IMG/VR virus record: IMGVR_UViG_3300025137_000218
Coordinates: 1 to 27,527 of that record
Length of the DNA stretch: 27,527 bases
Reading direction: 5' to 3' (one strand)
DNA from: a virus
The translations under genes and the position numbers were made by a program. Numbering within the stretch: the stretch's first letter is position 1; every line of letters begins with the position of its first letter. Below, in pieces: positions 12,232 through 26,284 of the stretch. The notes under the pieces are model-generated. The model did not search any database. It saw nothing but the letters and a program-made list of their open reading frames with translations, and was not told the DNA's origin.

Positions 12232-12263
12232 TGTTTGTGTGTTTCTTCAGTCTGTCAACTAAG
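12232..12263 (-). promoter_or_regulatory. Leader motif copy A (TTGACAGACT)
   Basis: On the minus strand this reads CTTAGTTGACAGACT followed by AAACACACAA. It sits right after the nuclease stop codon and about 40 bases before the SSB-polymerase-reductase genes. TTGACAGACT occupies 12249-12258. The same arrangement recurs before five other minus-strand units. Confidence 0.5.
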
Positions 12264-13335
12264 TACGGTAAGTAATCGAAAGTCGTGGTGAATAATCTCC
12301 TTGAGTTTGGAAATCACGGTGATCCAACCCCGCTTCTTTAAATTTATTTACATCGTACCTCATTGGTGCCTTTTGTGAATACATAGACACCGATCCCCAA
12401 TCAGCAGAAATCTTTTTACTTTCTGCCTCTTTAAGAATTTCTTTAATATCCTGTTCTAATTGTTTAACTTCTCTTGTCTTTGCTTTAGCCTCATCATTTA
12501 AGTTATGTCTGGCTATTATTTTTTCTTTTAATCTTTCTTTGATGGCGGCAGAAAAGTTTGAACCTTCCGCACTTGGAATACTAGAGACCTCTGTGTCTAG
12601 ACATAATGTCTTGTATGCACAGTAGGTACACTCCTTACCACCTTCTAATTTTCCTTCTGGTTCTGGTAATTTTTCCAAAGAAAATTTTGTGAATACAGAT
12701 GATGATCTTGCTCTTAAACCATGAGCCACCATCTCATCGAATGGAATAACCCAAGACTTAATTTGATTTACAAAACTTGCATTAATATATGTGATCACGG
12801 CATGAGTTGGAAAATGGTCTGTAGTTCTTCTAACTAAATCCATACCCTGTTGCACTTGCATTCTATGTTGAAACTTAGGTTCTCTTAAATTATCAAATGC
12901 TCTTGGATCAATTGACTTCAATTCATTGTATAAGCATTTAGTAAATCTTTTTGACCCACCCTCTTCTTCTACTTCAAACACTTCCCTGGATATAAATAGA
13001 CCATCAGGTGTGGCACTTTGATAATGAGTAATGTCAACTAATGTTTCTTGTCCATCATCGGTTGCCCAAATTAATTCTATTCCACTATCTTTCAGACTTT
13101 GTTGCATGGATGGTACTGCCCAATCCTCAACCATGTTTCCACGTTCAGCGGCTCCTAAGTCTTGAACAAAGTCTTTATCTACAGGTGCATTATGTTTGTC
13201 GTAGACAATGGATCTTAGACAACCACCTACGGCAGAAGCACCAACAGTTTTCTTTCTGTCGTGTCCACCCCAAGTTTTGTTGTCTGAGTTCTTGCTTATA
13301 TTATTTATTATTAAATTGTTTGTATTTAAAATCAT
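12259..13335 (-). CDS. PD-(D/E)XK nuclease with Fe-S-type cysteine cluster (Cas4/AddB-like)
   Basis: 358 residues, AGGAAT before the ATG. Nuclease core: Asp111 in ATPDGLF and Glu138-Leu-Lys140 in YNELKS, with QVQQGMDL downstream in the position of the Q-x-x-x-Y motif. Four cysteines, Cys39 (GGCLRS), Cys236, Cys239 and Cys245 (CTYCAYKTLC), have the one-plus-three spacing of RecB-family nucleases that hold a 4Fe-4S cluster. The C-terminus is a charged helical region. The role is probably an exonuclease in recombination, repair or host DNA degradation. The 17-bp repeat GCACTTGGAATACTAGA lies in the gene at 12569-12585. Confidence 0.85.
   Translation of the reverse strand: MILNTNNLIINNISKNSDNKTWGGHDRKKTVGASAVGGCLRSIVYDKHNAPVDKDFVQDLGAAERGNMVEDWAVPSMQQSLKDSGIELIWATDDGQETLVDITHYQSATPDGLFISREVFEVEEEGGSKRFTKCLYNELKSIDPRAFDNLREPKFQHRMQVQQGMDLVRRTTDHFPTHAVITYINASFVNQIKSWVIPFDEMVAHGLRARSSSVFTKFSLEKLPEPEGKLEGGKECTYCAYKTLCLDTEVSSIPSAEGSNFSAAIKERLKEKIIARHNLNDEAKAKTREVKQLEQDIKEILKEAESKKISADWGSVSMYSQKAPMRYDVNKFKEAGLDHRDFQTQGDYSPRLSITYRT
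12569..12585. repeat. 17-bp dispersed repeat, copy 1 (coding)
   Basis: GCACTTGGAATACTAGA, identical to 19629-19645. Inside the PD-(D/E)XK nuclease gene, where the complement codes SSIPSA. Confidence 0.55.
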
Positions 13336-13388
13336 TGGGTATTCCTATGATTGAATCCGTATATGCTCAACAACATTAAGCTGAGTGG

Positions 13389-13499
13389 AGTAAAGACCAA
13401 AGATATTTGACTAGACAAAATACTATAAAAAAAACTAGCATCATAGGCATCTGAGACCGAAGACCCAATACACGGCTCGGAAAGGAGTAGGTCTTTACT
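13389..13499 (-). ncRNA. Candidate structured RNA element between operon genes
   Basis: This is the only sizeable gap (about 170 bases) inside the replication operon. A perfect 10-base inverted repeat (AGTAAAGACC at 13389-13398 and GGTCTTTACT at 13490-13499) closes a 111-base element. Within it the minus strand has further GGTCT/GGGTCTT segments that could compete for the same AGACC strand, and an internal CTAG...CTAG pair around a T-run. It could be a leader, attenuator or a stable RNA. It matches no riboswitch class I know and has no coding frame of note. Confidence 0.35.
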
Positions 13500-13507
13500 A
13501 TTCTGTT

Positions 13508-13798
13508 TCACTTGGCAACCTTTCTAAAAACTTTTACATTCTTATCTTCTTTATCAAATGGCACAGGTACTAAGTCTCCACTATGCCAAAATAAAAGATC
13601 ACCCGATTTCAGTGTTTGTAAATTAAGGATAGGCACAGTCTTGCTATCGAAGACCCAAGCCATCAAATCATTTTCTAAATGTCTGTCATGTATATCATGT
13701 CCTTTAACAATAACTCTTTGAGTGGGTGACGTATTGTCAATTGTAAGACTGTCAAAGATCATTACTTCTGGTTCATACTGAATAAGAGCCTTACCCAT
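13508..13798 (-). CDS. Small conserved-looking protein, unknown
   Basis: 96 residues from the ATG at 13798, which overlaps the helicase stop (ATGGGTAA) and has GGAG 11 bases upstream; longer starts lie deep in the helicase. Sequence MGKALIQYEPEVMIFDSLTI continues into a beta-rich domain (RVIVKGHDIHDRHLENDLMA, LKSGDLLFWHSGDLVPVPFD). Acidic and basic residues are balanced, with no cysteines or membrane segment. Coupling to the helicase suggests a replication accessory, but I do not recognise it. Confidence 0.7.
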   Translation of the reverse strand: MGKALIQYEPEVMIFDSLTIDNTSPTQRVIVKGHDIHDRHLENDLMAWVFDSKTVPILNLQTLKSGDLLFWHSGDLVPVPFDKEDKNVKVFRKVAK

Positions 13799-15425
13799 TA
13801 GCGATCTCCTTTTTAAGTTCCTCAAAAACATTGAGGTCATTTTTGAAATCGCCATCGACAACGGCATTACTCATACCCATTTTCTTCTCAAGTAAACTGA
13901 ATAGTTTTTCATCAAAAGTGTTTTGAGCAACTAAGTAATTAATAGAACATGATTTAGTCTGACCATTTCTATGAACCCTGTCTTCAGCTTGTAACATTTC
14001 CATTGGCGAAAATGATGTCTCAACCATCAAGACATTGTTAGCTTTCTGTAAGTTTAAGCCTGTAGACCCAACACCTAACGTAAGTATTAGTATCCGCTTG
14101 TCAGACTTTGGATTTTGAAATCGAGATATATAAGCATCTCTATCTTGTTTAGTGGTAGAGCCTGTTAATAAATCAATCTGCTTATGCAACTTGTTGTTAT
14201 CAACACATGCTAAAAGATAATATATAAGTTCAGCTACTTTGACATGATAAGTAAATACGACTAACTTTTCATCATTAGATTGTAAGAAATCTTTTATCCA
14301 ATCAATTGCAAAATCTGATTTAAGTTCGCCTAGTTCAGTAAAAGCCTGTTGAAAAGTGTCATGATCATCCATATTAAAGTTGACTTTACAAGGGATGACC
14401 GACCTCATTTTAGGGGGCAGATCGAGGCAGTCATCCTTTGTAACTCGGTGCATATGGCGGGATAATTTAGAATGTAATTCAACTTTTCTAGATAACCCGT
14501 CTGCTACATAACCAAACTTACCCATATGTCCATTGCAATAAGTCTTAGTAAACTGATACCAATTATTAAATTCACTTGGTGCTACTATGTTTAATGGTGG
14601 GAATAAATCTACAGGTCTGTTTATTATTGGGGTGCCAGATAAACCTATGAAGTAATCACAAGTTTTAGCCAATTGTAAAATCGCTTTAGTCCGCTTTGCC
14701 TTGGGGTTCTTAATGTAATGGCATTCGTCACAAATAATGTACTCTGTTTTCCAAGTGGCTTTGCTTTCCGACTTTTTGTAAGCCTCGGCTCTCGCATATG
14801 AAACGAGTAATATCTCTCTTCCGTCATTTCCAACTCCTGTAATGTTAGGGTATATGTAAAGTTTGTAATCAGGTAGTAATCTTTTGATTTCTTTTTCCCA
14901 TTGCATCATCACACTAGCGGGTGTGAAGATCACAACTCTCTTAGCCTTAATAGAATTAATAGAAAGAATTGCTGATATGGTTTTACCTGTACCCATCTCA
15001 TGACCAAGGATCGATCGACCATTGTTATCTATCCAATGACAAACGGCATCTATCTGATGGTCATATGGTGTAACACCAAACTTATCTAAACTTTCTGACC
15101 AATCATTGGTCACTCGCTTTTGAAGTTCTTGACTTCTTTGCTTATAATACATTGAGCATTTACTCATATGATCTAGCATGGTTTGATTAACATTCATCCC
15201 AAGACCAACTTTTATAAGGTCTTTAAAGAACACATTAGTTATATAAGTATAAACAGTCAGACACTGTTCATTACTCATACGTTCCATTTTAACTAACCAC
15301 TTTTTTTCTTGCAGCAGGAAATTACAAAATGGAATTTTACTAAATAGAGTTGTTATCTTGGGGTCTTTAGAACCAGATATATGCAGTCGCATATTGGGTT
15401 CAAGTGATAATTGTATCTTTTGCAT
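13791..15425 (-). CDS. SNF2-type SF2 helicase/ATPase
   Basis: 544 residues from the ATG at 15425, which has AAAGGGAG 7 bases upstream (the ATG at 15443 has none). Motifs in order: TPYDHQIDAV (Q-like), Walker A GHEMGTGKTISAI (near residue 145), motif II CDECHYIKNP, motif III GLSGTPIINRP, then helicase domain 2 with LTLGVGSTGLNLQ and motif VI QAEDRVHRNGQTK. These define a SNF2/HepA/SMARCAL1-like translocase. It may remodel forks or remove proteins from DNA during phage replication. First gene of the long minus-strand replication operon. Confidence 0.9.
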   Translation of the reverse strand: MQKIQLSLEPNMRLHISGSKDPKITTLFSKIPFCNFLLQEKKWLVKMERMSNEQCLTVYTYITNVFFKDLIKVGLGMNVNQTMLDHMSKCSMYYKQRSQELQKRVTNDWSESLDKFGVTPYDHQIDAVCHWIDNNGRSILGHEMGTGKTISAILSINSIKAKRVVIFTPASVMMQWEKEIKRLLPDYKLYIYPNITGVGNDGREILLVSYARAEAYKKSESKATWKTEYIICDECHYIKNPKAKRTKAILQLAKTCDYFIGLSGTPIINRPVDLFPPLNIVAPSEFNNWYQFTKTYCNGHMGKFGYVADGLSRKVELHSKLSRHMHRVTKDDCLDLPPKMRSVIPCKVNFNMDDHDTFQQAFTELGELKSDFAIDWIKDFLQSNDEKLVVFTYHVKVAELIYYLLACVDNNKLHKQIDLLTGSTTKQDRDAYISRFQNPKSDKRILILTLGVGSTGLNLQKANNVLMVETSFSPMEMLQAEDRVHRNGQTKSCSINYLVAQNTFDEKLFSLLEKKMGMSNAVVDGDFKNDLNVFEELKKEIANG

Positions 15426-15457
15426 ATCGCTCCCTTTGTTCATTTGTGTGTTTTTTT

Positions 15458-15504
15458 AATCTGTCAATACAACCTTTATAATATTATATCCTGTCTGATG
15501 TCAA
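15458..15504 (-). promoter_or_regulatory. Candidate promoter of helicase operon with leader motif copy B
   Basis: On the minus strand TTGACA (15504-15499) and TTATAA/TATAAA (around 15481-15475) have 17-18 bases between them. The expected start falls at about 15468, exactly where leader motif copy B, TTGACAGATT (15467-15458), begins; AAAAAACACACAA follows. This copy suggests that the motif marks the first bases of the transcript. Confidence 0.45.
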
Positions 15505-15519
15505 CAACATAATAAAAAA

Positions 15520-15646
15520 TAAAAATCCCCAGTAAATAATTACTGAGGATCTTTAGACTGACAGGAGTGCCAAGGGAGGAAGAGAGACACTCTGCATTCT
15601 TTCTCTCACAAACAAAATTTTTTTACTATGGCATAGTTGACAAGTA
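15520..15646 (-). ncRNA. Candidate small RNA ending in an intrinsic terminator
   Basis: The minus strand holds a hairpin with stem ATCC-CAGTAA / TTACTG-GGAT (15525-15550, one mismatch, loop ATAA), followed by ATTTTTATTTTTT: a good intrinsic terminator. No minus-strand gene lies upstream of it, so it may end a short transcript. A possible promoter, TTGTCT (15680-15675) and TATTTT (15658-15653), has a 16-base spacer, giving an RNA of about 130 bases. It contains a second hairpin, GAGAGA/TCTCTC (15582-15607). The helicase promoter lies just beyond the terminator. Confidence 0.35.
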
Positions 15647-15716
15647 TATTAAAAAATATTATTGGTCAGACGACAGACAATAATATATTATAGACACACG
15701 TCTAGAGAGGAACCTC

Positions 15717-16589
15717 ATGAACCGAGAGCTTATCGAAGAATTCTTGAAGATAATTTACAAAAATAAAACGTCTGGTGTTTTGAGTTTTGAGACACAAGAC
15801 AAAGGTAGAGAGATGTTTAGGTCAGATAACCTTAATGATCTTCTTATATGGATAGACAAGATGGAACAAAGTCAAAGGGGTGTTCATCTGAGACAGTCAA
15901 GTATGGATGGTGATAGTAAAACTTGCACCAGAGCAGACGTTGTAGCAATTAATCATTTATGGATAGACATAGACACAGGTGTTGTCCCTAAAATATTACT
16001 TGAAGAAAAAAATTTAAGACCAACCTTTTGTATTAACTCTGGCAAAGGCATCCATTTATATTGGAGACTTGCTAAACCTGTAGATAATCTCATTGGTATT
16101 TCACAATGTGAAAAGATGATGAGGAAACTATGCGATATATTAGGTGGCGATCCCGCTCCTACTCACTCGGCTTCAACACTTAGAATTCCAGGGAGTATAA
16201 ACTTTAAATATAACCCACCTGTTCAGACAGAAAAAGTAAGTGCAATTAAGTGTGATCAAATGAAAGATTACACCCTGACAGACTTTGAAGAGTTTATCCA
16301 AAAGAATATGGATCCCTATGAACAACTGATTGATAACATTACTGAGGGCATGGGAATTTCTAAGTCTGCGTCTGACTGGCAGAGGATCATAGACAACTTA
16401 GCCATCTCAGGATCAGACAATGAGTTTGGTGGCAGACATAACTGTGTAACAAAATTAGCGGGTTATTGGACACGTCAGTCTGTCAATCCAGAAGTACAAC
16501 TTAAAACATTAGTCCAATATGGTTGCACCTTAAATGAATATGAGTGCAGAAATATTATTAATTGGGCATGGGAGAAACATGATCAATGA
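15717..16589 (+). CDS. PrimPol/AEP-type primase
   Basis: 290 residues; GAGAGG about 8 bases before the ATG. It has archaeo-eukaryotic primase features: the metal-binding Asp84-x-Asp86 (LWIDIDTG), the S-x-H motif around His113 (NSGKGIHLYW), and SASTLRIPGSINFK downstream. It would make primers for phage DNA synthesis. The C-terminal 80 residues (DWQRIIDNLAISG, GRHNCVTKLAGYW) look like the primase C-terminal helical domain. It overlaps the helicase gene by 4 bases, the common split of primase-helicase proteins into two genes. It is divergent from the SNF2 helicase operon. Confidence 0.85.
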   Translation: MNRELIEEFLKIIYKNKTSGVLSFETQDKGREMFRSDNLNDLLIWIDKMEQSQRGVHLRQSSMDGDSKTCTRADVVAINHLWIDIDTGVVPKILLEEKNLRPTFCINSGKGIHLYWRLAKPVDNLIGISQCEKMMRKLCDILGGDPAPTHSASTLRIPGSINFKYNPPVQTEKVSAIKCDQMKDYTLTDFEEFIQKNMDPYEQLIDNITEGMGISKSASDWQRIIDNLAISGSDNEFGGRHNCVTKLAGYWTRQSVNPEVQLKTLVQYGCTLNEYECRNIINWAWEKHDQ

Positions 16590-18097
16590 CATTAGCACCA
16601 AATCCCGCTGATCCAACTACTCATATTATACAACAGGTACAAACTGCACAGGCTCGTGGTGGCAGACCAAACATACGAGACATTCTCGGACATTGTATAG
16701 ATGCTTTAATCATAAGGTTCAGACAGAACGGGTCAGATATTTTACACAACAACGATACGTTTTTTCTCTTCGCAGCGAAGGAAGGTATCTGGAAAGTAGC
16801 AGACGTTGTAGACATAAAGACAGACATAGATGAATGGTTTCGCTCTGCAATTAACTTAGTACCAACCAAACAATTTAGGTCCGAAGTTCTGGAAGGCTTG
16901 ATGATGAGGGTTCATATTGCCAATGTTCCGTGGGGCAACGTCAGAAACATTATCATATGTAAGAACTTGATAGCTTACGACTTGGATAAAGGTCAGACTG
17001 TGACAGTCAAAAAGGAATGGTATCTCAGAGAAGACAACCTGTTGAATGTTGATTGGGTTAGTGGTGGTAAATGTCCTGTCTGGGACACATCACTACAAAA
17101 ACTATTTGCACATTTTACTGATCCTGTTGAGCGATCTCAGGTTATTCAACTAGTGGAAGAGTGGATGGGAACTACATTATATAGACACAATAGACCTAGA
17201 GCCTTGTCTAAATGTCTGTTCCTTTATGGAGAAAGACGCACGGGCAAATCTACAATTCTGGATGTACCCCGTCAAATCTTTGGAGAAAAATTAGCAACTG
17301 CCATAGACTTACAAGAACTAAGTGGGTTTGGTGCAGAAGCATTAATGAATAAAGCGGTATGGCTTTCCGATGAAATTAAGGTAGGAACAGTCATGAATGA
17401 TAGTGTTATTAAACGTGTCATTACAAACGAACCGCTTTCCATAAAAATTAAATTTGAAAAACCTTTTGAGGGCAGACTTAATTTGACAGTCGGTCTTGCG
17501 GGAAACTCACTACCCAAGATTGATGATACATCAGATGCAGTATATGACAGGATGATCTTTGTCCCGATGGATACTGTGATTGTAGCATCAGCAGAAAATC
17601 AAAAATTAAAAGATGAGCTTGAGGCGGAGCTACCTGCGATCTTGAATAAGATGGTAGACAGACTTGCAGACATAAGAAAACGTGGACAATATCAGATTCC
17701 AACGTGTCTGATTTCTAAGCAGGAAGAAATAAAGCTAGAGCAAGACCCACTTCGTGGCTTTCTTGATGAAGCAATAGCATCAACTAATAATTTATGTGCC
17801 ATCAAAAATGGAGACATCGTGTCTGCATATCGTGGTTATCTATTAAAACAATTCGGAAGTGATCAGGCTAAGAACTCAAAAGTCTCAGCAGTCTGGTTGT
17901 CTAGAAGAATATCCGAGGCTTTTCCAAACTCAACTGTGGGCAGAGTTGATCAGGGAACGGTGAGAGCCAGATTTGGTTTACATTTTTCAGACAAAGGAAA
18001 AGCATGGTTGTCTGCGGGATGGGGTCTGGAGGATTCATTTTACAAACCAGATCAAAAGAAACTTAAAGAAGCTAATATAAATACAGGAGTTAAGTAG
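16586..18097 (+). CDS. SF3/D5-type replicative helicase (P4-family, DUF5906-like)
   Basis: 503 residues, starting in an ATGA overlap with the primase. Walker A GERRTGKS (215-222), Walker B AVWLSDE (Asp262-Glu263) and a sensor/motif C segment (VGLAGNSLPKIDDTSDAVYD) with the following DRMIF arginine define the virus/plasmid primase-helicase family. It is expected to form a hexamer that unwinds DNA at the origin and fork. The N-terminal 200 residues include the D5_N-like region. A winged-helix-like C-terminal end (KVSAVWLSRRISEAFPNSTV) may bind DNA. Confidence 0.88.
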   Translation: MTLAPNPADPTTHIIQQVQTAQARGGRPNIRDILGHCIDALIIRFRQNGSDILHNNDTFFLFAAKEGIWKVADVVDIKTDIDEWFRSAINLVPTKQFRSEVLEGLMMRVHIANVPWGNVRNIIICKNLIAYDLDKGQTVTVKKEWYLREDNLLNVDWVSGGKCPVWDTSLQKLFAHFTDPVERSQVIQLVEEWMGTTLYRHNRPRALSKCLFLYGERRTGKSTILDVPRQIFGEKLATAIDLQELSGFGAEALMNKAVWLSDEIKVGTVMNDSVIKRVITNEPLSIKIKFEKPFEGRLNLTVGLAGNSLPKIDDTSDAVYDRMIFVPMDTVIVASAENQKLKDELEAELPAILNKMVDRLADIRKRGQYQIPTCLISKQEEIKLEQDPLRGFLDEAIASTNNLCAIKNGDIVSAYRGYLLKQFGSDQAKNSKVSAVWLSRRISEAFPNSTVGRVDQGTVRARFGLHFSDKGKAWLSAGWGLEDSFYKPDQKKLKEANINTGVK

Positions 18098-18277
18098 ATG
18101 CCCCGCCCTAATACGATTGGAGAACCGACAGTAATTTACAATGCATTATTAAAGAGAACTCAGTTAGAAAAATTACAATACATTGCCCATCAAGAACGTA
18201 AGGATGGTAAAACTCACATCTCAGCCGCAAGTATTATAAGAGATGCTATAGACAAGTGGTTGACAGACAATGTCTGA
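18098..18277 (+). CDS. Ribbon-helix-helix (CopG-like) DNA-binding protein
   Basis: 59 residues, three bases after the helicase stop, AGGAG 12 bases upstream. The order is a beta strand (PTVIYNALL), helix 1 (LEKLQYIAHQE), then SAASIIRDAIDKWL, the typical RHH helix 2. Such small proteins usually bind operators as dimers, often in autoregulation or plasmid/phage copy control. It overlaps the next gene by 8 bases. Confidence 0.65.
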   Translation: MPRPNTIGEPTVIYNALLKRTQLEKLQYIAHQERKDGKTHISAASIIRDAIDKWLTDNV

Positions 18278-18539
18278 TCCACAGTATTTAATAGCTGACG
18301 GGTTTGATGAGGCAATCATTGGCATCGGGTCTCGTATCAACATGGAAGACATTGTCTGTTACGACTATGATAAATGTGTAGATATATTAGTTAGAGATCA
18401 GCACATGGAATATGAAGAAGCTATCGAATGGATGGAATACAATGTTTGTGGTGCATGGATGGGGGATAAGACCCCAATCTTTGTGAGGTGCGATCCCACA
18501 TTAGATGGTGTTATCAAACAAAAAGATTGCAAAGCCTAA
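18270..18539 (+). CDS. Small phage protein conserved across marine phages, unknown
   Basis: 89 residues. Contains a pattern I recall from many phages: a start like YLIADGFDEAIIGIG, then CYDYDKCVDILV, then a segment YEEAIEWMEYNVCGAWMGDKTPIFV. The function is unknown; the protein is acidic. The start is inside the RHH gene, so translation is probably coupled. It converges with a short minus-strand gene, overlapping it by 4 bases. Confidence 0.75.
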   Translation: MSDPQYLIADGFDEAIIGIGSRINMEDIVCYDYDKCVDILVRDQHMEYEEAIEWMEYNVCGAWMGDKTPIFVRCDPTLDGVIKQKDCKA

Positions 18540-18694
18540 TCTTTTTTAAAAGGCTCTACTACTTTTGGTGCATCTTCCATACATATACAAGGTTCGGGTT
18601 TCCATAACTCGCCTTTGAACACAAAGCCAAGACCATCACAGGTCTCACATTGTATGTCAGTAAACGTAGGATATTCTGCTTGTGGTTTTTCCAT
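18536..18694 (-). CDS. Mini zinc-finger protein (DnaJ-type CxxCxGxG)
   Basis: 52 residues with GGGAG about 8 bases before the ATG at 18694. It contains CETCDGLGFV, one half of a DnaJ-type zinc finger, and EPCICM, a second cysteine pair, so four cysteines could hold one zinc. Such mini-fingers are frequent among small phage proteins. The function is unknown. It has its own leader with motif copy C. Confidence 0.65.
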   Translation of the reverse strand: MEKPQAEYPTFTDIQCETCDGLGFVFKGELWKPEPCICMEDAPKVVEPFKKD

Positions 18695-18701
18695 AAAAAA
18701 A

Positions 18702-18745
18702 CTCCCTATATTTTCAATCTGTCAAGATTAATTATATAGGGAGCG
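18702..18745 (-). promoter_or_regulatory. Leader motif copy C within an inverted repeat
   Basis: TTGACAGATT on the minus strand at 18725-18716, about 22 bases before the zinc-finger start. It is bracketed by an inverted repeat, CTCCCTATA / TATAGGGAG, whose right arm on the minus strand contains the ribosome site, so folding could hide the start. Confidence 0.4.
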
Positions 18746-18772: not shown

Positions 18773-19402
18773 TTATAGATCGGTCGAGTAGGTGTCCGAC
18801 TTTGTGGTATCAATTCGCATTAAATCTTCAAAAGTTTTAAGGGCAAGAAAAGCCTTGCCAATTGTATTCTTAGTTAATTTTCTTCTCCAAAGTATGTAAT
18901 CATAGACCTTGTCAACAAGTATAGGCGATGCCAAACAAAATAGCTGACCATTAGATTTGATAGTCTGTACCCAACCCGCATCCTCACATTCTTTTATCAT
19001 GGTACTTATTGTCTTTCGATCAGCTACCATTTCATCTACGAGGGTCGTTATATTATAAGGCTTATTAACGAGGTACCCATAGACCATCCATCTTGCAAAG
19101 GCATTCCGTAATGGTGTTGAATTGAAGTATCTTTGCACCTCATTATCCATACGTTGTTGTCTAGCCTTATGCATCCTCATTTCTGTGGTCAAGGTTGCTA
19201 GAGTGTATTCTCTTTGTAAATGGTCAGAGATTTCATATACACTGTTCTCTTTTTTTACTTCTTTAAAACAATAATCTTCAGTCTCTTTTTGCTTTAAAGA
19301 TTTAATTATAGTTTTTAATTCATGAACGTTATATAAACCGTCTTGGTTAGGTACTAGATTATTTGTCTCATCCCTTTTGTAATGTAATTTTAAGTCATTC
19401 AT
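18773..19402 (-). CDS. Winged-helix DNA-binding protein (MarR-like fold)
   Basis: 209 residues; AAAGGAAGAG before the ATG. The N-terminal half is charged and helical. Residues about 100-165 form a winged helix: RNAFARWMVYGYLVNKPYNI, then TTLVDEMVADRKTISTMIKE as helices 2-3, then CEDAGWVQTIKSNGQLFCLA as the wing. Encoded next to the iteron array and the candidate origin, it is a good candidate for the array-binding protein, either initiator or repressor. This pairing is inference from position. Confidence 0.7.
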   Translation of the reverse strand: MNDLKLHYKRDETNNLVPNQDGLYNVHELKTIIKSLKQKETEDYCFKEVKKENSVYEISDHLQREYTLATLTTEMRMHKARQQRMDNEVQRYFNSTPLRNAFARWMVYGYLVNKPYNITTLVDEMVADRKTISTMIKECEDAGWVQTIKSNGQLFCLASPILVDKVYDYILWRRKLTKNTIGKAFLALKTFEDLMRIDTTKSDTYSTDL

Positions 19403-19422: not shown

Positions 19423-19432
19423 AGTCTGTCAG
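19423..19432 (-). promoter_or_regulatory. Leader motif copy D (variant)
   Basis: CTGACAGACT on the minus strand, 21 bases before the winged-helix gene start. One base differs from TTGACAGACT, and no AAACACA follows. Confidence 0.35.
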
Positions 19433-19536
19433 TTGATCCACATTATAATCTCCCCTTTATAAAATGTCCATAGAAAAAGAGTATCAATTTAATATTAAGT
19501 ATCAAGATAATTAATTTTAATTATCAAAGTTTTTAA

Positions 19537-19854
19537 TGACAGTAAAAAATTTTTACCTGTTTTACTGTCATTAATTTTGGTTTTACTGTCAGTAAATCAG
19601 ACTTTGGGTGGTCTTTGGTTGAGGTTTTGCACTTGGAATACTAGATTAATGACAGTAAACGGGTTTTTACTGTCATTAAAAAGTTTTACTGTCAGTAAAA
19701 GCGGGAAAATAAGTGTTTGTTTTTACGGGATAATTAGAGTTTTACTGACAGTATGACAGTAAAGTACAGTAAATCTTCTATTAAGTAGTAATATATAATA
19801 ATAATAATAGGTATATGTTTACGGTTTTACTGTACTTTACTGTCATTACTGTCA
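19537..19854. repeat. Iteron-like array of TTTACTGTCA in both orientations
   Basis: I count eight exact copies of TTTACTGTCA or its complement: 19537, 19561, 19582, 19650, 19666, 19685, 19754 and 19836. There are also variants (TTTACTGACA near 19741, TTTACTGTAC at 19826, TTACTGTCA at 19846). Two copies extend into palindromes around a single base: TTTACTG-T-CAGTAAA (19582-19596) and TTTTACTG-T-CAGTAAAA (19684-19700). The symmetry suggests binding of a dimer. Confidence 0.85.
19629..19645. repeat. 17-bp dispersed repeat, copy 2 (intergenic)
   Basis: GCACTTGGAATACTAGA, identical over all 17 bases to 12569-12585, lying between iterons. Confidence 0.6.
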
Positions 19855-20017: not shown

Positions 20018-20026
20018 ATTATTGTG

Positions 20027-20065
20027 GTAGACACAGACACAAGAACAGACTATGTTGGTGTCTAC
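20027..20065. other. Inverted repeat upstream of resolvase gene
   Basis: GTAGACAC (20027-20034) and GTGTCTAC (20058-20065) are perfect complements separated by 23 bases. It lies about 70 bases before the RuvC-like start. Operator or RNA hairpin; no T-run follows. Confidence 0.35.
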
Positions 20066-20128: not shown

Positions 20129-20133
20129 TATAA

Positions 20134-20595
20134 ATGGGGACATTAGTTGGTGTAGATATTGGAACCCTTTGCGGGGTTGCTTGGAAAAAAGATTCTGTCA
20201 TCAGACATGTACAATTTGACACATCTAAAGCTAGGATCAGCGGGGGCGGGATGAGACCTCTGATGTTGAGGCGACATTTATTAGAACTATTTAATGAGAT
20301 TGAACCCATTGAAGAGTTAGCTTTTGAATTAGTACAGAGACATAGCGGTACTTATGCGGGTCAGATTTATGGAGAACTTCGAGGTGTCTTGATGTCTGTC
20401 TGTGAAGAGTTGTCTGTCCCATACAGGTCTGTAGGTGTTACTACAATTAAAAAACATATGACGGGAAGCGGAATTGCTTCAAAAGATATAGTCAGACAGG
20501 CAGTTGTTGAGATGTATCCCGACCTTGATCCTCAGACAGAAGACGAGGCTGATGCTATTAGTATATTGCAATGTGTTATTGATGGGGTATTTTAA
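20134..20595 (+). CDS. RuvC-like Holliday-junction resolvase
   Basis: 153 residues. It has the RNase-H-fold resolvase layout: first acidic residue Asp8 (VGVDIGTLCG), second Glu65 (AFELVQRH), and a C-terminal pair Asp137/Asp140 (EDEADAISIL). The middle holds the conserved KKHMTGSGIASKDIV stretch seen in RuvC-like phage proteins. It would cut branched DNA to resolve replication or recombination intermediates before packaging. The ATG at 20134 has only a weak ribosome site. It is coupled to the zinc-ribbon gene by TAATG. Confidence 0.85.
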   Translation: MGTLVGVDIGTLCGVAWKKDSVIRHVQFDTSKARISGGGMRPLMLRRHLLELFNEIEPIEELAFELVQRHSGTYAGQIYGELRGVLMSVCEELSVPYRSVGVTTIKKHMTGSGIASKDIVRQAVVEMYPDLDPQTEDEADAISILQCVIDGVF

Positions 20596-20816
20596 TGGGG
20601 AAAGTTATTCGACCTAATTTTTCTAGACAAAAGAAATATCATCTTGCCTGTAATGAATGCAACTCTATTAATTGGACTATTCAATTAGACCCCGAAATAG
20701 GACAAGCCATTCTCGAAAAGTCTCCAAATCATGATGAGTTGGATTTTGAATGTGTTGCGATCGAATGTTTGGAATGTGGGTATAGTATTGAAATGAGGGG
20801 AAAACCTAGTAATTAA
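20595..20816 (+). CDS. Zinc-ribbon protein, unknown
   Basis: 73 residues. Two cysteine pairs, ACNECNS and IECLECGYS, about 40 residues apart, suggest one zinc site of the ribbon type. Between them is an acidic segment (SPNHDELDFECVAIE). It is coupled to the resolvase gene and may be its partner or an independent DNA- or RNA-binding factor. Confidence 0.7.
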   Translation: MGKVIRPNFSRQKKYHLACNECNSINWTIQLDPEIGQAILEKSPNHDELDFECVAIECLECGYSIEMRGKPSN

Positions 20817-20826
20817 CAGGTCTAAT

Positions 20827-20859
20827 CATACAGGGAGATATATTTAACCCCCCTGTATG
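20827..20859. terminator. Hairpin between convergent genes
   Basis: CATACAGGG (20827-20835) pairs perfectly with CCCTGTATG (20851-20859). It sits in the 65-base gap between the convergent zinc-ribbon gene and the minus-strand block. A T-run (TTGTTTTTTC) follows about 15 bases later on the plus strand. A bidirectional terminator is likely. Confidence 0.5.
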
Positions 20860-20881
20860 GCTCTTAAAAAGGCTTGTTTTT

Positions 20882-21394
20882 TCAGCAAGTCTCTATTTGT
20901 TCGATGTTATCGTCATAAACCTTTTCTAGATGCTCACAAACATCTTTCCAAGTTTTCTGTTTTTCGTGGTCTCTTTCTGCCCAAACACCATCTAGATTTT
21001 CATTGTCACATGCGAGAATAAAATTACTATCCTCTTCTAGAGTGCCATAACATAAAGTTGTACCACCATTTTTTCTATTATAAATATAGTCTTCTTTTGT
21101 AGTCACTTTTTCAGTCTCCCAATATTGTTCAATGTCTCCATCAGACTTGATGTCTCTTGGACATTTGAACTCTTGATATAAAAGACGAGCATCTTTATGA
21201 ATGCCCCTCTCTTTAATGAATTGCTGATGGGTATTTAACTCTCCGTCTTCAGCAATACATTCGGGCGAAAGAGCAATAGCTATTTCTTTCCATTGCTCCC
21301 TTGCTCTTTCTTTAGTAGTTGGATAAGAACCATTTAAATAGTTCCATCGTGGGTCTTGTTCTTCTCCATTGAAATTTATAAAAACTTTACTCAT
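20882..21394 (-). CDS. Unknown early-type protein
   Basis: 170 residues from the ATG at 21394, which has AGGGAGA 7 bases upstream; an ATG two codons earlier lies too close to it. Charged and aromatic, no membrane segment: MSKVFINFNGEEQDPRWNYL at the start, then PTTKERAREQWKEIAIALSP. Several cysteines (PECIAED, KCPRD, LACDN, DVCEHL) are not arranged as a clear zinc site. Last gene of an operon of small acidic proteins. No family is recognised. Confidence 0.7.
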   Translation of the reverse strand: MSKVFINFNGEEQDPRWNYLNGSYPTTKERAREQWKEIAIALSPECIAEDGELNTHQQFIKERGIHKDARLLYQEFKCPRDIKSDGDIEQYWETEKVTTKEDYIYNRKNGGTTLCYGTLEEDSNFILACDNENLDGVWAERDHEKQKTWKDVCEHLEKVYDDNIEQIETC

Positions 21395-21396
21395 TT

Positions 21397-21708
21397 TCAT
21401 TCTCCCTTTAGTTTTGGAACTACAAAACCAACAACATGAATTTCATCATCCCCATCATCATCAGTACTATCTTGATTATAATTTACGGGACAATCTTTTA
21501 ACCAATCTTGATATTGTTTATGTTTATTAGGAACTTCTTTAACTTCCACAGTCTCCATGATCTCTTCATCGTTATCGCCATATGTAGGATCATCTTCACA
21601 TGTTACAAAATCAAAATAGTTTTCTTCAGCTTGTTCTTGATTGTCTGCTTTGACCCAATAATGTGTGTAAGTTGTAGAAGTACACGTTACTTTAAATATT
21701 TTACTCAC
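21397..21708 (-). CDS. Small acidic protein, unknown
   Basis: 103 residues from the GTG at 21708 (MSKIFKV), preferred because its leader matches that of the next gene: AGGGAGAATGAAA then RTGAGTAAA. An ATG two codons upstream is the alternative. The N-terminal 35 residues (FKVTCTSTTYTHYWVKADNQ) look like a beta-alpha domain. The rest is strongly acidic (CEDDPTYGDNDEEIMETVEV, STDDDGDDE). Possibly a DNA-mimic or host-takeover protein, which is speculation. Confidence 0.7.
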   Translation of the reverse strand: MSKIFKVTCTSTTYTHYWVKADNQEQAEENYFDFVTCEDDPTYGDNDEEIMETVEVKEVPNKHKQYQDWLKDCPVNYNQDSTDDDGDDEIHVVGFVVPKLKGE

Positions 21709-21925
21709 TTTCATTCTCCCTTGTTCTTAAATAGTAGGTTTGATTTTCTTTCTCATCGCCCACATAAACTTCTTCAAAATTTAAAGACAGTCCAAATTTG
21801 TAGCCACGATTGTAATATGCAGATGAGTTTTTCTTAACATCCACCATCATTTTTAGAGCATCTTTTACACCATCCTCGAACATAGTCAGATATGTCTGAC
21901 GTTTCTTTTCTAAAATTTTATCCAT
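21701..21925 (-). CDS. Small protein, unknown
   Basis: 74 residues from the ATG at 21925, with GAGGAG 7 bases upstream. Helical first half (MDKILEKKRQTYLTMFEDGV, KDALKMMVDVKKN) and a GYKFGLSLNF motif, which suggests a short alpha-beta fold. It overlaps both neighbours by 8 bases, so translation is coupled. Confidence 0.65.
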   Translation of the reverse strand: MDKILEKKRQTYLTMFEDGVKDALKMMVDVKKNSSAYYNRGYKFGLSLNFEEVYVGDEKENQTYYLRTRENESE

Positions 21926-22157
21926 CTTCATTCTCCTCTTCACATTCACAATCGATTTCGTGTACATCACATTTTGGACATATGTCTGATGCCTTATAAA
22001 AAATTACAATATGATCTATCTCTTTTCCTTTTGGTATATCGCCTTTTCTTTCAGCAATAATATTCTCAAGGTCTTGAGTGTCTGCATATCCCCAATTGGT
22101 ATGACCTAAGTTTTCTTCACATGCCTCGTCTATGGCATCACTTTGAAATCTACTCAT
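21918..22157 (-). CDS. Small acidic Cys-rich protein, unknown
   Basis: 79 residues from the ATG at 22157, with AAGGAG 8 bases upstream. It starts MSRFQSDAIDEACEENLGHT and ends in a Cys/His-rich tail (DICPKCDVHEIDCECEEENE), which may hold zinc. It is strongly acidic. Confidence 0.65.
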   Translation of the reverse strand: MSRFQSDAIDEACEENLGHTNWGYADTQDLENIIAERKGDIPKGKEIDHIVIFYKASDICPKCDVHEIDCECEEENEDG

Positions 22158-22371
22158 CAGCTTTCTCCTTATGGTTATCGTCATTGCTTAAACAATCCTC
22201 ACAAATACATCCCCAATCTTTTAAAAGTTGTGGGAAGTTTTTTAATAAATTTGTTAAGCCTAAGTCTTCTATTTCTTCTTCGCTCATCCATTCATATCCA
22301 CCAAACACTTCAGTATGATCGAATGTATTTTTACATACCTCACAGGGTATTTTTACGTCTTCATCAACCAT
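22150..22371 (-). CDS. Small zinc-finger-like acidic protein
   Basis: 73 residues. Two cysteine pairs, IPCEVCKN and CICEDCLS, with an acidic middle (SEEEIEDLGLTNLLKNF). The start region GGAGAAAGCTGATG is nearly the same as that of the next gene, and the two overlap by 8 bases. Function unknown. Confidence 0.65.
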   Translation of the reverse strand: MVDEDVKIPCEVCKNTFDHTEVFGGYEWMSEEEIEDLGLTNLLKNFPQLLKDWGCICEDCLSNDDNHKEKADE

Positions 22372-22658
22372 CAGCTTTCTCCCAAGTAATAAATTATTCC
22401 AAATTTATGTAAGGTCTTTAACTCTTCACGGGTTATGTCCCATACACCCTTTACCCGAACAATTTTTTCATCATCATACCAATAACCATCATTGCCCTCG
22501 GCATCTTCCTCGGTAAAACCTTGGTCATAGTATTCTGATAATATTGTTAGGTCGGAAAGTTTGTCGTTACGAAAATCCTTTGCGGTAAAGTTTTCATAAT
22601 AACCATAACTTTCATATTCATTCTCGCCACTACGAGTTGTTACACAAAATAGTATCAT
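22371..22658 (-). CDS. Small acidic protein, unknown
   Basis: 95 residues, very rich in Glu, Asp and Tyr (NEYESYGYYENFTAKDF, EEDAEGNDGYWYDDEKIV). A beta strand starts the protein (MILFCVTTRSGE). The last part is basic-helical (ITREELKTLHKFG). The acidic and aromatic surface resembles phage inhibitor proteins in general character only. Confidence 0.65.
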   Translation of the reverse strand: MILFCVTTRSGENEYESYGYYENFTAKDFRNDKLSDLTILSEYYDQGFTEEDAEGNDGYWYDDEKIVRVKGVWDITREELKTLHKFGIIYYLGES

Positions 22659-22686
22659 TAGCTTTTTCCTTTATGTTTGTTGATGA

Positions 22687-22878
22687 CTATAAATCTTTTG
22701 TTATATATTTTATTTGACCTACTGATACTTTGTACCGACTAGCTAAAACGATTGGTGTTAGGTTTTTCACACGTTTCGCAGTTATATTACCGTAGGTACG
22801 TTCGTACTCTATTCGCTTGTTATCTTCTTCAATAGCCTCACGAATTTCATCTACTTGATTATGTGATAGTTTTAACAC
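22687..22878 (-). CDS. Small HTH-like protein
   Basis: 63 residues from a GTG at 22878, AAAGG about 10 bases upstream. The C-terminal half (NLTPIVLASRYKVSVGQIKY) has the spacing of a helix-turn-helix. It overlaps the preceding gene by 20 bases. Confidence 0.55.
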   Translation of the reverse strand: MLKLSHNQVDEIREAIEEDNKRIEYERTYGNITAKRVKNLTPIVLASRYKVSVGQIKYITKDL

Positions 22879-23098
22879 TATTTTTTCCTTTCACTTGTTG
22901 GATATCCATGTTGTTCCACATGGATCGATTGATTTTAAATTTGATGTTATGAATTGGAATACAAACTCGTACCCACTTATGCCCTACTACTGCGAAAGCA
23001 TATCTTAAACCACAGACAGGCAATCGCATTTCATTAAAGTAAACTTTAAATAGTTTAGCAGTAGACCAAGACTTTTCTTTAGGCTTGTGCTTGTACAT
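22859..23098 (-). CDS. Small basic protein, unknown
   Basis: 79 residues from the ATG at 23098, with GGGGG upstream; the longer frame would lie inside the previous gene. Sequence starts MYKHKPKEKSWSTAKLFKVY and has a beta-rich middle (VCGLRYAFAVVGHKWVRVCI). It is basic, unlike its neighbours. Confidence 0.6.
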   Translation of the reverse strand: MYKHKPKEKSWSTAKLFKVYFNEMRLPVCGLRYAFAVVGHKWVRVCIPIHNIKFKINRSMWNNMDIQQVKGKNSVKTIT

Positions 23099-23393
23099 AG
23101 TCTGCCCCCTTATTATTTCCCTGGAAGTAACCAAGGGGCATGACATCATTCTCTAGAGTAATGAACAGGTCTTGCTGATCATAAAATCTAAACTTAGTCC
23201 AATAGACACGAGCCTTAATATTTGATTGTTCTTTACATATATGAACATCAAAAAACTTTCCATCATACTCAAAGAACTCACAAGTATCTTGAAAGTTTTC
23301 ATCTTTATCTATGATGTCTTGAACAAATGTTTTGATCATAGTTCTAAATTGTGGAGTGGAATTGTAATACATTTCCATTTTAAGATTAGCCAT
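23079..23393 (-). CDS. Unknown protein of early operon
   Basis: 104 residues. Beta-rich and aromatic (EFFEYDGKFFDVHICKE, ARVYWTKFRFYDQQDLFITL). It is coupled to the preceding gene (ATG at 23393 directly overlaps its stop). No family is recognised. Confidence 0.65.
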   Translation of the reverse strand: MANLKMEMYYNSTPQFRTMIKTFVQDIIDKDENFQDTCEFFEYDGKFFDVHICKEQSNIKARVYWTKFRFYDQQDLFITLENDVMPLGYFQGNNKGADYVQAQA

Positions 23394-23761
23394 TAATCAT
23401 TCCCCTTTCTTAAAGAGAAATGAGTAATAGGATTATCATCTGTACCAACTACACAATCATCACACTCCATGACCTCTTCTTCTATCTGCTCCCACTTTTC
23501 CGCAGTCTGTTCTTCATGAAGAGATAGCTTGTCATTATTTAGATCACGTTCATATTTGTTCTTTATGGTTGTGTGTTTCTTACATAGTAATCCCCAATGT
23601 AAAGGATCAGTTAGTTCATCAAAATTAATTTGAATTTTGGTTTTGTGATGTTTAAGAAGTCTATTGATTTGCTTAACAGTTTCTTCAAGCACCCAATCAG
23701 CGGAAGTCTTGTAGTCAAATGCTAACCAAAAATCTTCTTTAGGTTTAATAGCTTTTGCCAT
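23393..23761 (-). CDS. Unknown protein, first gene of early operon
   Basis: 122 residues; TGGAG 8 bases before the ATG, directly after leader motif E. Acidic with a helical centre (EETVKQINRLLKHHKTKIQI, NKYERDLNNDKLSLHEEQTA) and a Cys pair (ECDDCVVG). No family is recognised. Confidence 0.7.
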   Translation of the reverse strand: MAKAIKPKEDFWLAFDYKTSADWVLEETVKQINRLLKHHKTKIQINFDELTDPLHWGLLCKKHTTIKNKYERDLNNDKLSLHEEQTAEKWEQIEEEVMECDDCVVGTDDNPITHFSLRKGND

Positions 23762-23763
23762 TG

Positions 23764-23789
23764 TGTTTCTCCATAGTCTGTCAACTAAT
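23764..23789 (-). promoter_or_regulatory. Leader motif copy E (TTGACAGACT)
   Basis: On the minus strand: TTAGTTGACAGACT, then GGAGAAACACA, then the ATG of the next gene. TTGACAGACT occupies 23784-23775. Confidence 0.5.
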
Positions 23790-23793
23790 AAAC

Positions 23794-23853
23794 CGAGGGA
23801 CTGCCTCGTCAGTACATCCTAATCACAGGATGCAGACACCCAAGTAAACTTGG
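23794..23853 (-). terminator. Three tandem hairpins between operons
   Basis: Three perfect short inverted repeats lie within 60 bases: CGAGG/CCTCG (23794-23808), CATCCT/AGGATG (23815-23832) and CCAAG/CTTGG (23840-23853). They follow the stop of the small gene at 23866 and precede leader motif E. No long T-run is seen, so termination is not certain; an RNA processing signal is possible. Confidence 0.4.
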
Positions 23854-23865
23854 ATGTTTCAACAT

Positions 23866-24024
23866 TTACGATTTATTATTTTTCTCAAGATGGTGAACGA
23901 TAAATTCAACACGTTCATAGGCAGACATGTGGGTTTCTACACCATCCACATATGTGTCTGCCTTGTCTGTATTATTATCTAGCTGATGCTTGAGGTCATA
24001 AGCAATTTGAAGAACCTCATCCAT
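23866..24024 (-). CDS. Small helical protein (52 residues)
   Basis: Starts at 24024, overlapping the previous stop by 8 bases. Sequence MDEVLQIAYDLKHQLDNNTD, then a helical YERVEFIVHHLEKNN end. The coupling to the preceding gene supports it being real. Function unknown. Confidence 0.6.
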   Translation of the reverse strand: MDEVLQIAYDLKHQLDNNTDKADTYVDGVETHMSAYERVEFIVHHLEKNNKS

Positions 24025-24364
24025 TAGATTTATTCCAATCATCAATATATTCTTTATTGCTTTTGAAAGGTTCAGCTAATTTTTGAAACATCTTCTGATC
24101 AAACCCTTTGAGGGTAAATGATCCTTTACCACCTTTGATCTGATACAACCCTAGATTAATTGGTTTGTTATCTAATTGATAACTCAACCCTCCTGTTTCA
24201 TTTATGTATGTAGACTTATGAGCATAAAGTAAGTTCACACGAGTTGGTCTTTTTGCAATACGAGAAATACATTTTTGTAAATCTACATCTCTTGACCATT
24301 GCCCAAGAGTTTCAAGTTCTAGGGCAAGGAAAGACATATCATTTTCTAATAAATGTTCAGCCAT
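24017..24364 (-). CDS. Unknown protein of early operon
   Basis: 115 residues, coupled by TAATG. It has an N-terminal acidic helix (ENDMSFLALELETLGQWSRD) and a C-terminal part with GGKGSFTLKGFDQKMF. No family is recognised. Confidence 0.65.
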   Translation of the reverse strand: MAEHLLENDMSFLALELETLGQWSRDVDLQKCISRIAKRPTRVNLLYAHKSTYINETGGLSYQLDNKPINLGLYQIKGGKGSFTLKGFDQKMFQKLAEPFKSNKEYIDDWNKSNG

Positions 24365-24612
24365 TATTTATTTTCCCATTCTTCTATTTGATTGAGTAAA
24401 CCCTCGGCACATTCATTTCTGCCAAGAAATATTTCGGGTTGATCACAAATGTCTTCAGCATTTTTACCATTTGAAATTTCTGCTTGAAGTTCTGTGTAAG
24501 AATTAACCTCAGATATCAACCAATTTTGTATCTTAACAATTAGGGCATCTTTCTTACCCATTGCAGACATGAGATTTTCTCTCTCTGTCTCAAGTTCTTT
24601 TATTCTATCCAT
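24364..24612 (-). CDS. Small coiled-coil protein
   Basis: 82 residues; GGGAGAAAA before the ATG. The sequence is mostly helical with heptad-like spacing (MDRIKELETERENLMSAMGK, DALIVKIQNWLISEVNSYTE), then a turn and NECAEGLLNQIEEW. Function unknown. Confidence 0.65.
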   Translation of the reverse strand: MDRIKELETERENLMSAMGKKDALIVKIQNWLISEVNSYTELQAEISNGKNAEDICDQPEIFLGRNECAEGLLNQIEEWENK

Positions 24613-25018
24613 AAATTTTCTCCCTGTTCTCTGCCTGTGCAGATAAGTTTAAGATAATAATATTTTTATTTGTTTTAGGATCATGCTCATAGGTAAGAGC
24701 AATAATATCTCCCGCCTTAGACTTTTGCTTAATGGATTGGATACTAAATCTTTTATCCCCTCTAGCCTTAGTCTTATAAAAGTTAACCTTGGTTGGAGTA
24801 TCAACTCCATTAAACCTAAAGACTGCTGACAAAGTCTGCTTATCTCCATTTGTCATAGCCTTAAAGTCAACACCATATAAAGATGCGAACCTTTCAAATA
24901 CACCCGCATCAATATTATTTTTATTCCACATGGTATGAGTTAGTTTTAAATGTGGAAATTGTGGATCAAGAGACTGAACCACATTGGTTTCTATTTTTGA
25001 ATAGTTTGAATTATTCAT
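24605..25018 (-). CDS. Unknown protein of early operon
   Basis: 137 residues from the ATG at 25018, with AAAGGAAAG about 6 bases upstream. The C-terminal half is beta-rich and basic (AVFRFNGVDTPTKVNFYKTK, IIALTYEHDPKTNKNIIILN). It overlaps the HTH gene upstream by 8 bases and the coiled-coil gene by 8. No family is recognised. Confidence 0.65.
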   Translation of the reverse strand: MNNSNYSKIETNVVQSLDPQFPHLKLTHTMWNKNNIDAGVFERFASLYGVDFKAMTNGDKQTLSAVFRFNGVDTPTKVNFYKTKARGDKRFSIQSIKQKSKAGDIIALTYEHDPKTNKNIIILNLSAQAENREKIYG

Positions 25019-25460
25019 TGTCTTTCCTTTCATAAAGTAAATATGATTTTAAGTTTTGTAGAATTGTTTCGATCGCAGATAGACTGCGAACACTTGGAAT
25101 TCTAGACGGCAAATCCTCATCTAAACTAACAGGTGTACCTGTCGATATAGATAAGGCTCTGATCCTCATTGAGACTTTTAATCTAAGATAATCTGAAATA
25201 CCTTTCGGAATATTTGTTCTACTGTTTAACCAATTTCTAACAACTTGGTCATTAACTTTGAACAACCCACAAAGTTCTTTGGTAGACATATCCAAGGCTA
25301 ACAGACAGACACGCAATTGATCAGACGTGATCGTTGTCTGTGTCTGTCTAATATCCTCGATTGGAAATGCTTTTGTATTACCTGCGTGGGTAGATTTTTT
25401 AGAAAATCTTTTTCTTAAAAGTTCATCGGGAACAGATGGAATTTTATTTTCTGTTTCCAT
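25011..25460 (-). CDS. Helix-turn-helix regulator
   Basis: 149 residues from the ATG at 25460 (GGTGGAG 7 bases upstream). Residues about 40-85 (TSDQLRVCLLALDMSTKELC, then GLFKVNDQVVRNWLNSRTNI) form an XRE-like helix-turn-helix ending 'W-x-x-S/G-R-x-x-I-P', as in phage and antitoxin regulators. It may control the early operons; a copy of the 17-bp repeat (25090-25106) lies inside its own gene. Confidence 0.7.
   Translation of the reverse strand: METENKIPSVPDELLRKRFSKKSTHAGNTKAFPIEDIRQTQTTITSDQLRVCLLALDMSTKELCGLFKVNDQVVRNWLNSRTNIPKGISDYLRLKVSMRIRALSISTGTPVSLDEDLPSRIPSVRSLSAIETILQNLKSYLLYERKDNE
25090..25106. repeat. 17-bp dispersed repeat, copy 3 (coding)
   Basis: ACACTTGGAATTCTAGA, two mismatches from copies 1 and 2. 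Inside the HTH gene, where the complement codes SRIPSV, in the same frame as SSIPSA of copy 1. Confidence 0.5.
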
Positions 25461-25668
25461 TACTCCACCTTTTAAATGAGTACTCACTTTCAATTACGAT
25501 GATAGGCACAAAGATGCCAACCAATATAAAAATGGATGAGATTGCCCACATGATCCAATCAGTAGGCTGAGATAAAGCAATATTTGTCTCAACCAGATCC
25601 AGAATTGCAAATCCAAAAAAGAAATAGATCACAGACATAAAGATTAAAAACTTTTTTATCTTAGACAT
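25444..25668 (-). CDS. Small two-span membrane protein
   Basis: 74 residues; GGAGG before the ATG. Two membrane segments: FLIFMSVIYFFFGFAILDLV and WIMWAISSIFILVGIFVPII. The ends are basic (MSKIKK, KRWSNGNRK), placing both in the cytoplasm. A role in superinfection exclusion or membrane modification is possible but not shown. Confidence 0.7.
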   Translation of the reverse strand: MSKIKKFLIFMSVIYFFFGFAILDLVETNIALSQPTDWIMWAISSIFILVGIFVPIIVIESEYSFKRWSNGNRK

Positions 25669-26239
25669 TTATACCTCCCATATTAAATTGAGTTGAAAGG
25701 TTATCTAAGTTTTGGCTTATAATAGTTTTAGCATTAGCAAACTTATTGGATACCTCTTGCCCTAACTTTTCTGTTGCAATCCATGTAGGAATTTCAAAGC
25801 AGATATCATCTCTACCTTTAAGATTGTAGGCTCTTTTATTATGGATTTGAGACTTAGCTATCCATATATCAATTTCATTAGCAAATTTTAGAAAGATAGC
25901 TTTTTCACTTTCTTTTAAAAACTTTCCATAAATTAAAATTGTAGAGCCTGTATTGTTAAGAAGATTATTTGTATCCAATAGATTTATTTCTCTATTAGCT
26001 AATGATCTTAAATTTTTAAGATTTTTCTTTTCAATCCAAAGTGGTTTAAGATTTTCAAATAACCAATTTCCATCATCTTCTTGATGCATATGATAACATT
26101 TAACAACATCATCTTGATATGCAGTTTTACCTCTCCAAACTCCAAAGACGAGACCTTGTCTTTTTATTCTTTGCAGTCTGTTAGTAGTGACCTCACATAA
26201 ATTAAGGTACACATTTTTATGCTGATCTTCATTACTCAT
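25661..26239 (-). CDS. Unknown protein, first gene of operon
   Basis: 192 residues with a strong ribosome site (AAAGGAGG) after leader motif F. Basic and aromatic N-terminal half (RIKRQGLVFGVWRGKTAYQD, VVKCYHMHQEDDGNWLFENL), then a helical middle (IEKKNLKNLRSLANREINL). No family is recognised. It heads the operon that includes the HTH regulator. Confidence 0.7.
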   Translation of the reverse strand: MSNEDQHKNVYLNLCEVTTNRLQRIKRQGLVFGVWRGKTAYQDDVVKCYHMHQEDDGNWLFENLKPLWIEKKNLKNLRSLANREINLLDTNNLLNNTGSTILIYGKFLKESEKAIFLKFANEIDIWIAKSQIHNKRAYNLKGRDDICFEIPTWIATEKLGQEVSNKFANAKTIISQNLDNLSTQFNMGGINV

Positions 26240-26258
26240 GAAAGACCTCCTTTAGTTT

Positions 26259-26284
26259 GATTGTGTTTTAGTCTGTCAACTAAG
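26259..26284 (-). promoter_or_regulatory. Leader motif copy F (TTGACAGACT)
   Basis: On the minus strand: TAATAT, 7 bases, then TTGACAGACT (26279-26270), then AAAACACAATC. As in copy B, a possible -10 box (TAATAT) lies about 7 bases before the motif, again placing it at the transcript's start. Confidence 0.5.

Follow-up and report, generated by a model that had tools for sequence, protein, structure and literature searches.

The word TTGACAGAYT is a real, conserved piece of the mRNA start region in a group of marine phages, and it is probably an element of the mRNA 5' leader, placed between the element that forms the 5' end and the Shine-Dalgarno sequence. Two of its six leader copies lie just after a predicted hammerhead ribozyme, and the motif thus most likely acts on the finished message and not as a promoter. 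From the sequence we infer a role at the RNA level, in translation or stability.

The window and its relatives

The window is the whole of IMG/VR record IMGVR_UViG_3300025137_000218 (27,527 bases), from an uncultured marine phage. It encodes an integrase, ribonucleotide reductase, family A DNA polymerase, RecE-like exonuclease, SNF2-like helicase, primase/helicase, RuvC-like resolvase and a CobT-like gene. Relatives were chosen from viral contigs by polymerase identity (60-100%), and large parts of several records were examined:

G002, 44 kb: overlaps the window, near-identical
G003, 59.6 kb: polymerase identity 93%
G006, 32 kb: polymerase identity 90%, covered via loci L030 and L085
G005, 43 kb: polymerase identity 70%
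G007 and G011, about 60 kb: polymerase identity 60-64%

Among named isolates, an RNR is held in common with CRP-3 (70%) and CRP-212 (68%), and a capsid protein with CRP-810 (45%). In the stretches of these three genomes that were examined, a descriptor scan found no hammerheads, and GACAGAC words were unlinked to leaders. A gene pair like that of CRP-810-type roseophages, one CobS-like and one CobT-like, is seen at window 26388-27527 and L049 3891-7550, and in relatives each gene of the cobS-like/cobT-like pair has a hammerhead leader of its own. A host search among genome contigs returned two weak leads, both of them MAG contigs and uninformative.

Occurrence of the motif in leaders

The preliminary description had placed TTGACAGAYT before six minus-strand transcription units, and this is borne out, with five exact copies and a one-base variant:

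12249..12258, minus: copy A, TTGACAGACT, kept in 10 or more distinct relatives
15458..15467, minus: copy B, TTGACAGATT, leader of the SNF2-like helicase gene 13791-15443
18716..18725, minus: copy C, TTGACAGATT, in the loop region of hairpin 18701-18744
19423..19432, minus: copy D, CTGACAGACT (one-base variant), leader of gene 18773-19402
23775..23784, minus: copy E, TTGACAGACT, leader of gene 23393-23761, 3' of a type II hammerhead
26270..26279, minus: copy F, TTGACAGACT, leader of gene 25661-26239, 3' of a type I hammerhead

The distance from the end of the motif to the start codon is 35 bases for copy A, 14 for B, 21 for C, 20 for D, 13 for E and 30 for F, within the 10-45 bases originally given. 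The longer pattern reported for four copies (TTAG or GTA, the motif, 1-6 nt, AAACACA) is likewise present, in A, B, E and F. A sixth exact copy, overlooked earlier, lies at 16477-16486 on the minus strand, antisense within the primase gene. It occurs elsewhere only in near-identical contigs, and is probably due to chance.

The exact word occurs six times in the window, always on the minus strand, against an expectation of 0.31, and none of 100 shuffles reaches six. With one mismatch allowed, the count is 13 against 7.2 expected, which 5 of 100 shuffles reach; this set is not significant alone, and the evidence for the motif therefore lies in the exact word and its place. On simple ORF calls, which underlie all leader and coding counts, TGACAGAY is found in 6 of the 15 window leaders, in none of them antisense; among coding windows its frequency is 0.2% (p about 4e-12). 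When the leaders of the window, G002 and G003 are ranked for over-represented 6-mers, with no motif supplied, TGACAG comes out on top in all three.

The motif is strongly sense-oriented, and its leaders are A-rich (45%) and U-poor (17%). Its predicted accessibility is 0.64 unpaired compared with 0.51 in random windows of the same length (p 3e-6), which is partly an effect of composition. A small hairpin over the motif (TTAGTT-GACA-GACTAA) is possible in A, E and F and impossible in B and D, so RNA structure is not conserved. Such a hairpin was accordingly rejected as the conserved feature, the cobS and cobT leaders also lacking it by eye. What the copies share is where they sit in the mRNA: close to its 5' end and ahead of the Shine-Dalgarno sequence, in an A-rich, U-poor and fairly unpaired leader. 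This favours a role at the RNA level.

Related forms are found on the other strand:

1369..1379, plus: variant CAGACACAGAC, precedes gene 1427-1660; also in L009, L011 and L018
15691..15704, plus: small hairpin TAGACACACGTCTA, directly after a -10-like TATTAT, in the leader of primase gene 15717-16589
20027..20065, plus: hairpin whose loop region contains ACAGACT, upstream of RuvC-like gene 20134-20595

In relatives L012, L016 and L018 the RuvC leader carries the exact TTGACAGACT. Together with the plus-strand variants, this indicates that the motif is not bound to one strand. The statement that no copy in the given form precedes a plus-strand gene thus holds for the window, but variants do precede such genes there, and the exact form does so in the RuvC leader of these relatives.

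Sequences upstream of copies A to D

TTGACA is the -35 box of sigma-70 promoters, and the first six bases of the motif are identical to it; here, however, -10-like boxes lie upstream of the motif and not 16-18 nt downstream. The motif was rejected as a -35 box, given that no promoter-like site starts at any copy and no -10 hexamer follows at 16-18 nt, in agreement with the earlier observation that a -10 box 17 nt downstream is lacking, which is confirmed for every copy. An upstream -10 had been suggested for B and F. It stands for B, whereas the one at F sits in the 3' tail of a hammerhead; C and D also have one.

Copy A lies directly after the stop codon of the RecE-like exonuclease, in the leader of a phrog_9528-like gene (11548-12213), and neither promoter nor ribozyme is seen in its upstream region. 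Just upstream of copy B lie a conserved TTGACA box and an AT-rich -10 region, but no site there passes the rules of the promoter scan. TATAAT lies 5 nt upstream of copy C, and copy D lies 9 nt past a near-consensus promoter-like site, TGGACA-17-TATAAT (19470-19442). Copy C is enclosed in a hairpin:

18701..18744, minus: hairpin CTCCCTATAT...ATATAGGGAG around copy C, fold z-score -6.8

The 3' arm of this hairpin contains the Shine-Dalgarno sequence of gene 18536-18694, a run of seven T follows the stem, and relative L011 shows a compensatory change (CTCCCTGTAT/ATACAGGGAG). The hairpin, which holds a -10-like box as well as the motif, looks as if it could both terminate the upstream gene and block the Shine-Dalgarno sequence of the next. 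Upstream of gene 18773-19402, the region 19530-19850 is non-coding and contains many palindrome-like repeats, TTTACTGTCAGTAAA / TTAATGACAGTAAA, which could be iterons of an origin or operators.

Hammerhead ribozymes upstream of copies E and F

Copies E and F are each preceded by a predicted hammerhead:

23795..23864, minus: predicted hammerhead, type II (stems I and III closed), upstream of copy E; predicted cleavage 23835/23834
26297..26353, minus: predicted hammerhead, type I (stem I open), upstream of copy F; predicted cleavage 26305/26304

The hammerhead of copy E has the conserved core at 23864-23802 (GAAAC, GUC^U with the NUH cleavage triplet, and CUGACGA). It scores 31.1 bits against Rfam RF02276 (E = 0.0016, 4.2 kb searched). 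This falls short of the 37-bit gathering score, which is a curation threshold and not a structural feature; the descriptor scan also matches. In the window, two of the pairs in its stem II are G-U, and the pairing of this stem is better in a relative. The hammerhead of copy F, with the core UUGAUAA in which U3-A8 replaces C3-G8, has no Rfam hammerhead match in the window up to E = 10, and a related type I copy in L084 matches RF02275 only at E = 0.1. With a covariance model built solely from relatives it scores 63 bits (E = 9.7e-14), the descriptor agrees, and all matches of this model in the 537 kb searched fall at hammerhead leaders. At gathering score there are no Rfam hits, and most of the hammerhead copies score below the Rfam gathering scores.

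The strict descriptor scan has a background of 4 matches in about 1.04 Mb of shuffled sequence, both strands. Relaxed later to permit a mismatch at 10.1-11.1, it finds in the relatives about 20 distinct hammerheads of types I, II and III, located before cobS-like and cobT-like genes, the genes following copies F and E, and small genes. In type III hammerheads 99.4% of cells are paired, and both sides have changed in 12 of 16 pairs (0 of 500 shuffles), while in type I hammerheads of relatives all 12 pairs are formed and both sides have changed in 5. The core pair C3-G8 has become U3-A8 in several F-gene hammerheads, the window's included, and a U-U mismatch at 10.1-11.1 is present in almost every type III copy. 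Both are described as natural hammerhead variants in PMC3088659. These hammerheads very probably self-cleave. The cobT-leader hammerhead of G002 (L051 18188) has an additional base between core and stem II (CTGACGATGATC), and is perhaps less active.

Association of ribozyme and motif in relatives

Twenty hammerheads were found via protein searches, with no selection for the motif. A motif word lies within 40 nt 3' of 16 of these, against a background of 5.8%; loci from a ribozyme-plus-motif pattern search, being selected for the motif, were left out of this count. The four hammerheads without a motif are all in G006 (L085), which shows that hammerheads do not need it. Conversely, the cobS and cobT leaders of G011 carry (GACA)n with no hammerhead found. 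Ribozyme and motif are thus separate modules that are usually placed together. The order of modules is a terminator-like hairpin (GGGGCA..TGCCCC), the hammerhead, the GACAGAC motif, the Shine-Dalgarno sequence and the start codon, and the order from hammerhead to start codon recurs in relatives before cobS, cobT and other genes. In L123, a different phage contig, the leader after the type III hammerheads at 5068 and 5456 is A/C-rich and lacks the GACAGAC motif, and the combination of a ribozyme with an unstructured leader may therefore be more general.

Copies of the motif recur at orthologous leaders in relatives with polymerase identity of at least 88%, and across relatives motif and start codon are kept together, whatever the upstream element. 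In more distant phages the leader words are related, CAGACACAGAC in G005 and GACAGACAGAC repeats in G011, and no leader of G005 or G007 has the exact form. GACAGA is found in 5 of 21 leaders of G011 (p 0.0015); a scan of viral contigs for AGACAG captures the same repeat in another register, and is not a control. With a broader word set, G011 shows significant enrichment in leaders (p 0.005), G005 is borderline (0.053) and G007 shows none (0.23). The enrichment that the preliminary description had asked for in related phages is therefore present in the closest relatives and in G011, borderline in G005, and does not extend to G007.

Proposed origin of the 5' end and alternative readings

The preliminary description left a choice between a promoter part, an operator and a 5' UTR signal. 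The last of these is best supported, by the hammerheads before E and F, the cohesion of motif and start codon across relatives and the sense orientation; a promoter or operator role is possible for B, C and D, and is unable to explain A, E and F. In the mechanism that we propose, the hammerhead that precedes E and F, and in relatives also cobS, cobT and further genes, would cut a read-through transcript and so make the 5' end. For B, C and D the 5' end would come from a sigma-70-like promoter, its -10 box ending a few bases before the motif, and A looks like a leader internal to an operon. At its 5' end the resulting message would carry a short A-rich, U-poor leader, [U]UGACAGAY..AAACACA.., which, once exposed, would most likely be a landing or protection site, for 30S/S1 standby or for a phage or host RNA-binding protein. 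An extension of this mechanism, to which we give a low probability, is that nearly all messages of the phage group carry the GACAGAC leader as a phage-wide tag. A phage-encoded RNA-binding or ribosome-associated factor would then favour tagged over host messages, with promoters and ribozymes placed to expose the tag at the mRNA 5' end.

It is somewhat unlikely that the motif instead works in the DNA, where transcription starts, either as an operator or as an initially transcribed sequence, and is read together with the upstream -10 by RNA polymerase or a phage repressor or activator. Such a role would fit the -10-like box whose end lies about 5-9 nt ahead of the motif in C and D, the AT-rich -10 region before B and the plus-strand leaders in which TATTAT is followed by AGACACAC. 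However, what lies directly upstream of E and F is a hammerhead and not a promoter, A immediately follows a stop codon and has no visible promoter, and the upstream element varies while motif and start codon remain joined. PF00940 (single-subunit RNA polymerase) has no match in 14 related records. The control genomes gave none either and the records may be incomplete, so that a promoter for a T7-like RNA polymerase is only weakly disfavoured.

The F leader is near-identical in the window and G003, where the proteins are just 56% identical, as might be expected if leaders were shared cassettes for gene exchange and the motif a boundary sequence for homologous recombination. We regard this as improbable, since the compensatory changes in the ribozymes and the retention of leader position in diverged phages (the GACA repeats of G011) point to selection for function and not only for sequence identity. 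That the motif closely trails hammerheads could also mean that it belongs to the ribozyme, as a tertiary contact, and occurs elsewhere by chance. This reading is disfavoured and very improbable, given the absence of a hammerhead at A-D, the G006 hammerheads without motif and the G011 motif without hammerhead. Chance recurrence of an AT-rich word would suit the one-mismatch set, which is just marginally above shuffles, but is refuted for the exact form, where word, strand, place and conservation far exceed it.

Comparison with known systems and significance

Both components have known counterparts, hammerheads in phage leaders (PMC3088659) and start-associated sequences in another phage group (PMC3203893); their combination, a hammerhead with a leader motif, was not found in the limited set of literature searched. 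Phage and prophage hammerheads were described by Perreault et al. 2011 (PMC3088659; Rfam RF02276, clan CL00010). In that account, as here, types I, II and III occur in phage intergenic regions near gene starts, with several per genome flanking single genes, and it is proposed that they cut long phage transcripts into gene-length mRNAs. The difference here is that the ribozymes are linked to a shared leader motif, which goes unmentioned in the part of that account consulted. The HHphage hammerhead of haloviruses HF1/HF2 lies 13 nt upstream of a helicase start codon, and the transcript 5' end is related to the cleavage site (PMC3088659); these viruses belong to another phage group, and the same part of the source describes no leader motif for them.

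The Start-Associated Sequences (SAS/ESAS) of Cluster K mycobacteriophages (Pope et al. 2011, PMC3203893), of unassigned function and with a suspected role in translation, resemble the motif in that they are short and asymmetric, recur in numerous leaders within a single phage group, mostly keep one orientation, precede genes that have a wider gap upstream, and are at times accompanied by a second upstream module. That module consists of 17-bp inverted repeats in SAS, in contrast to a hammerhead here. SAS are 13 bp long (GGGATAGGAGCCC) and include the Shine-Dalgarno sequence, whereas TTGACAGAYT is unrelated in sequence and lies upstream of it. Identification of the motif as a Cluster K SAS was rejected, as GGGATAGGAGCCC with its Shine-Dalgarno sequence is not matched.

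Across diverged marine phages, the fixed order of ribozyme, motif and start codon ties phage hammerheads to the making of a defined mRNA 5' leader. The same motif follows promoters in the same genome as ribozymes. Cut site, motif and Shine-Dalgarno sequence can be mutated separately, which provides a directly testable handle.
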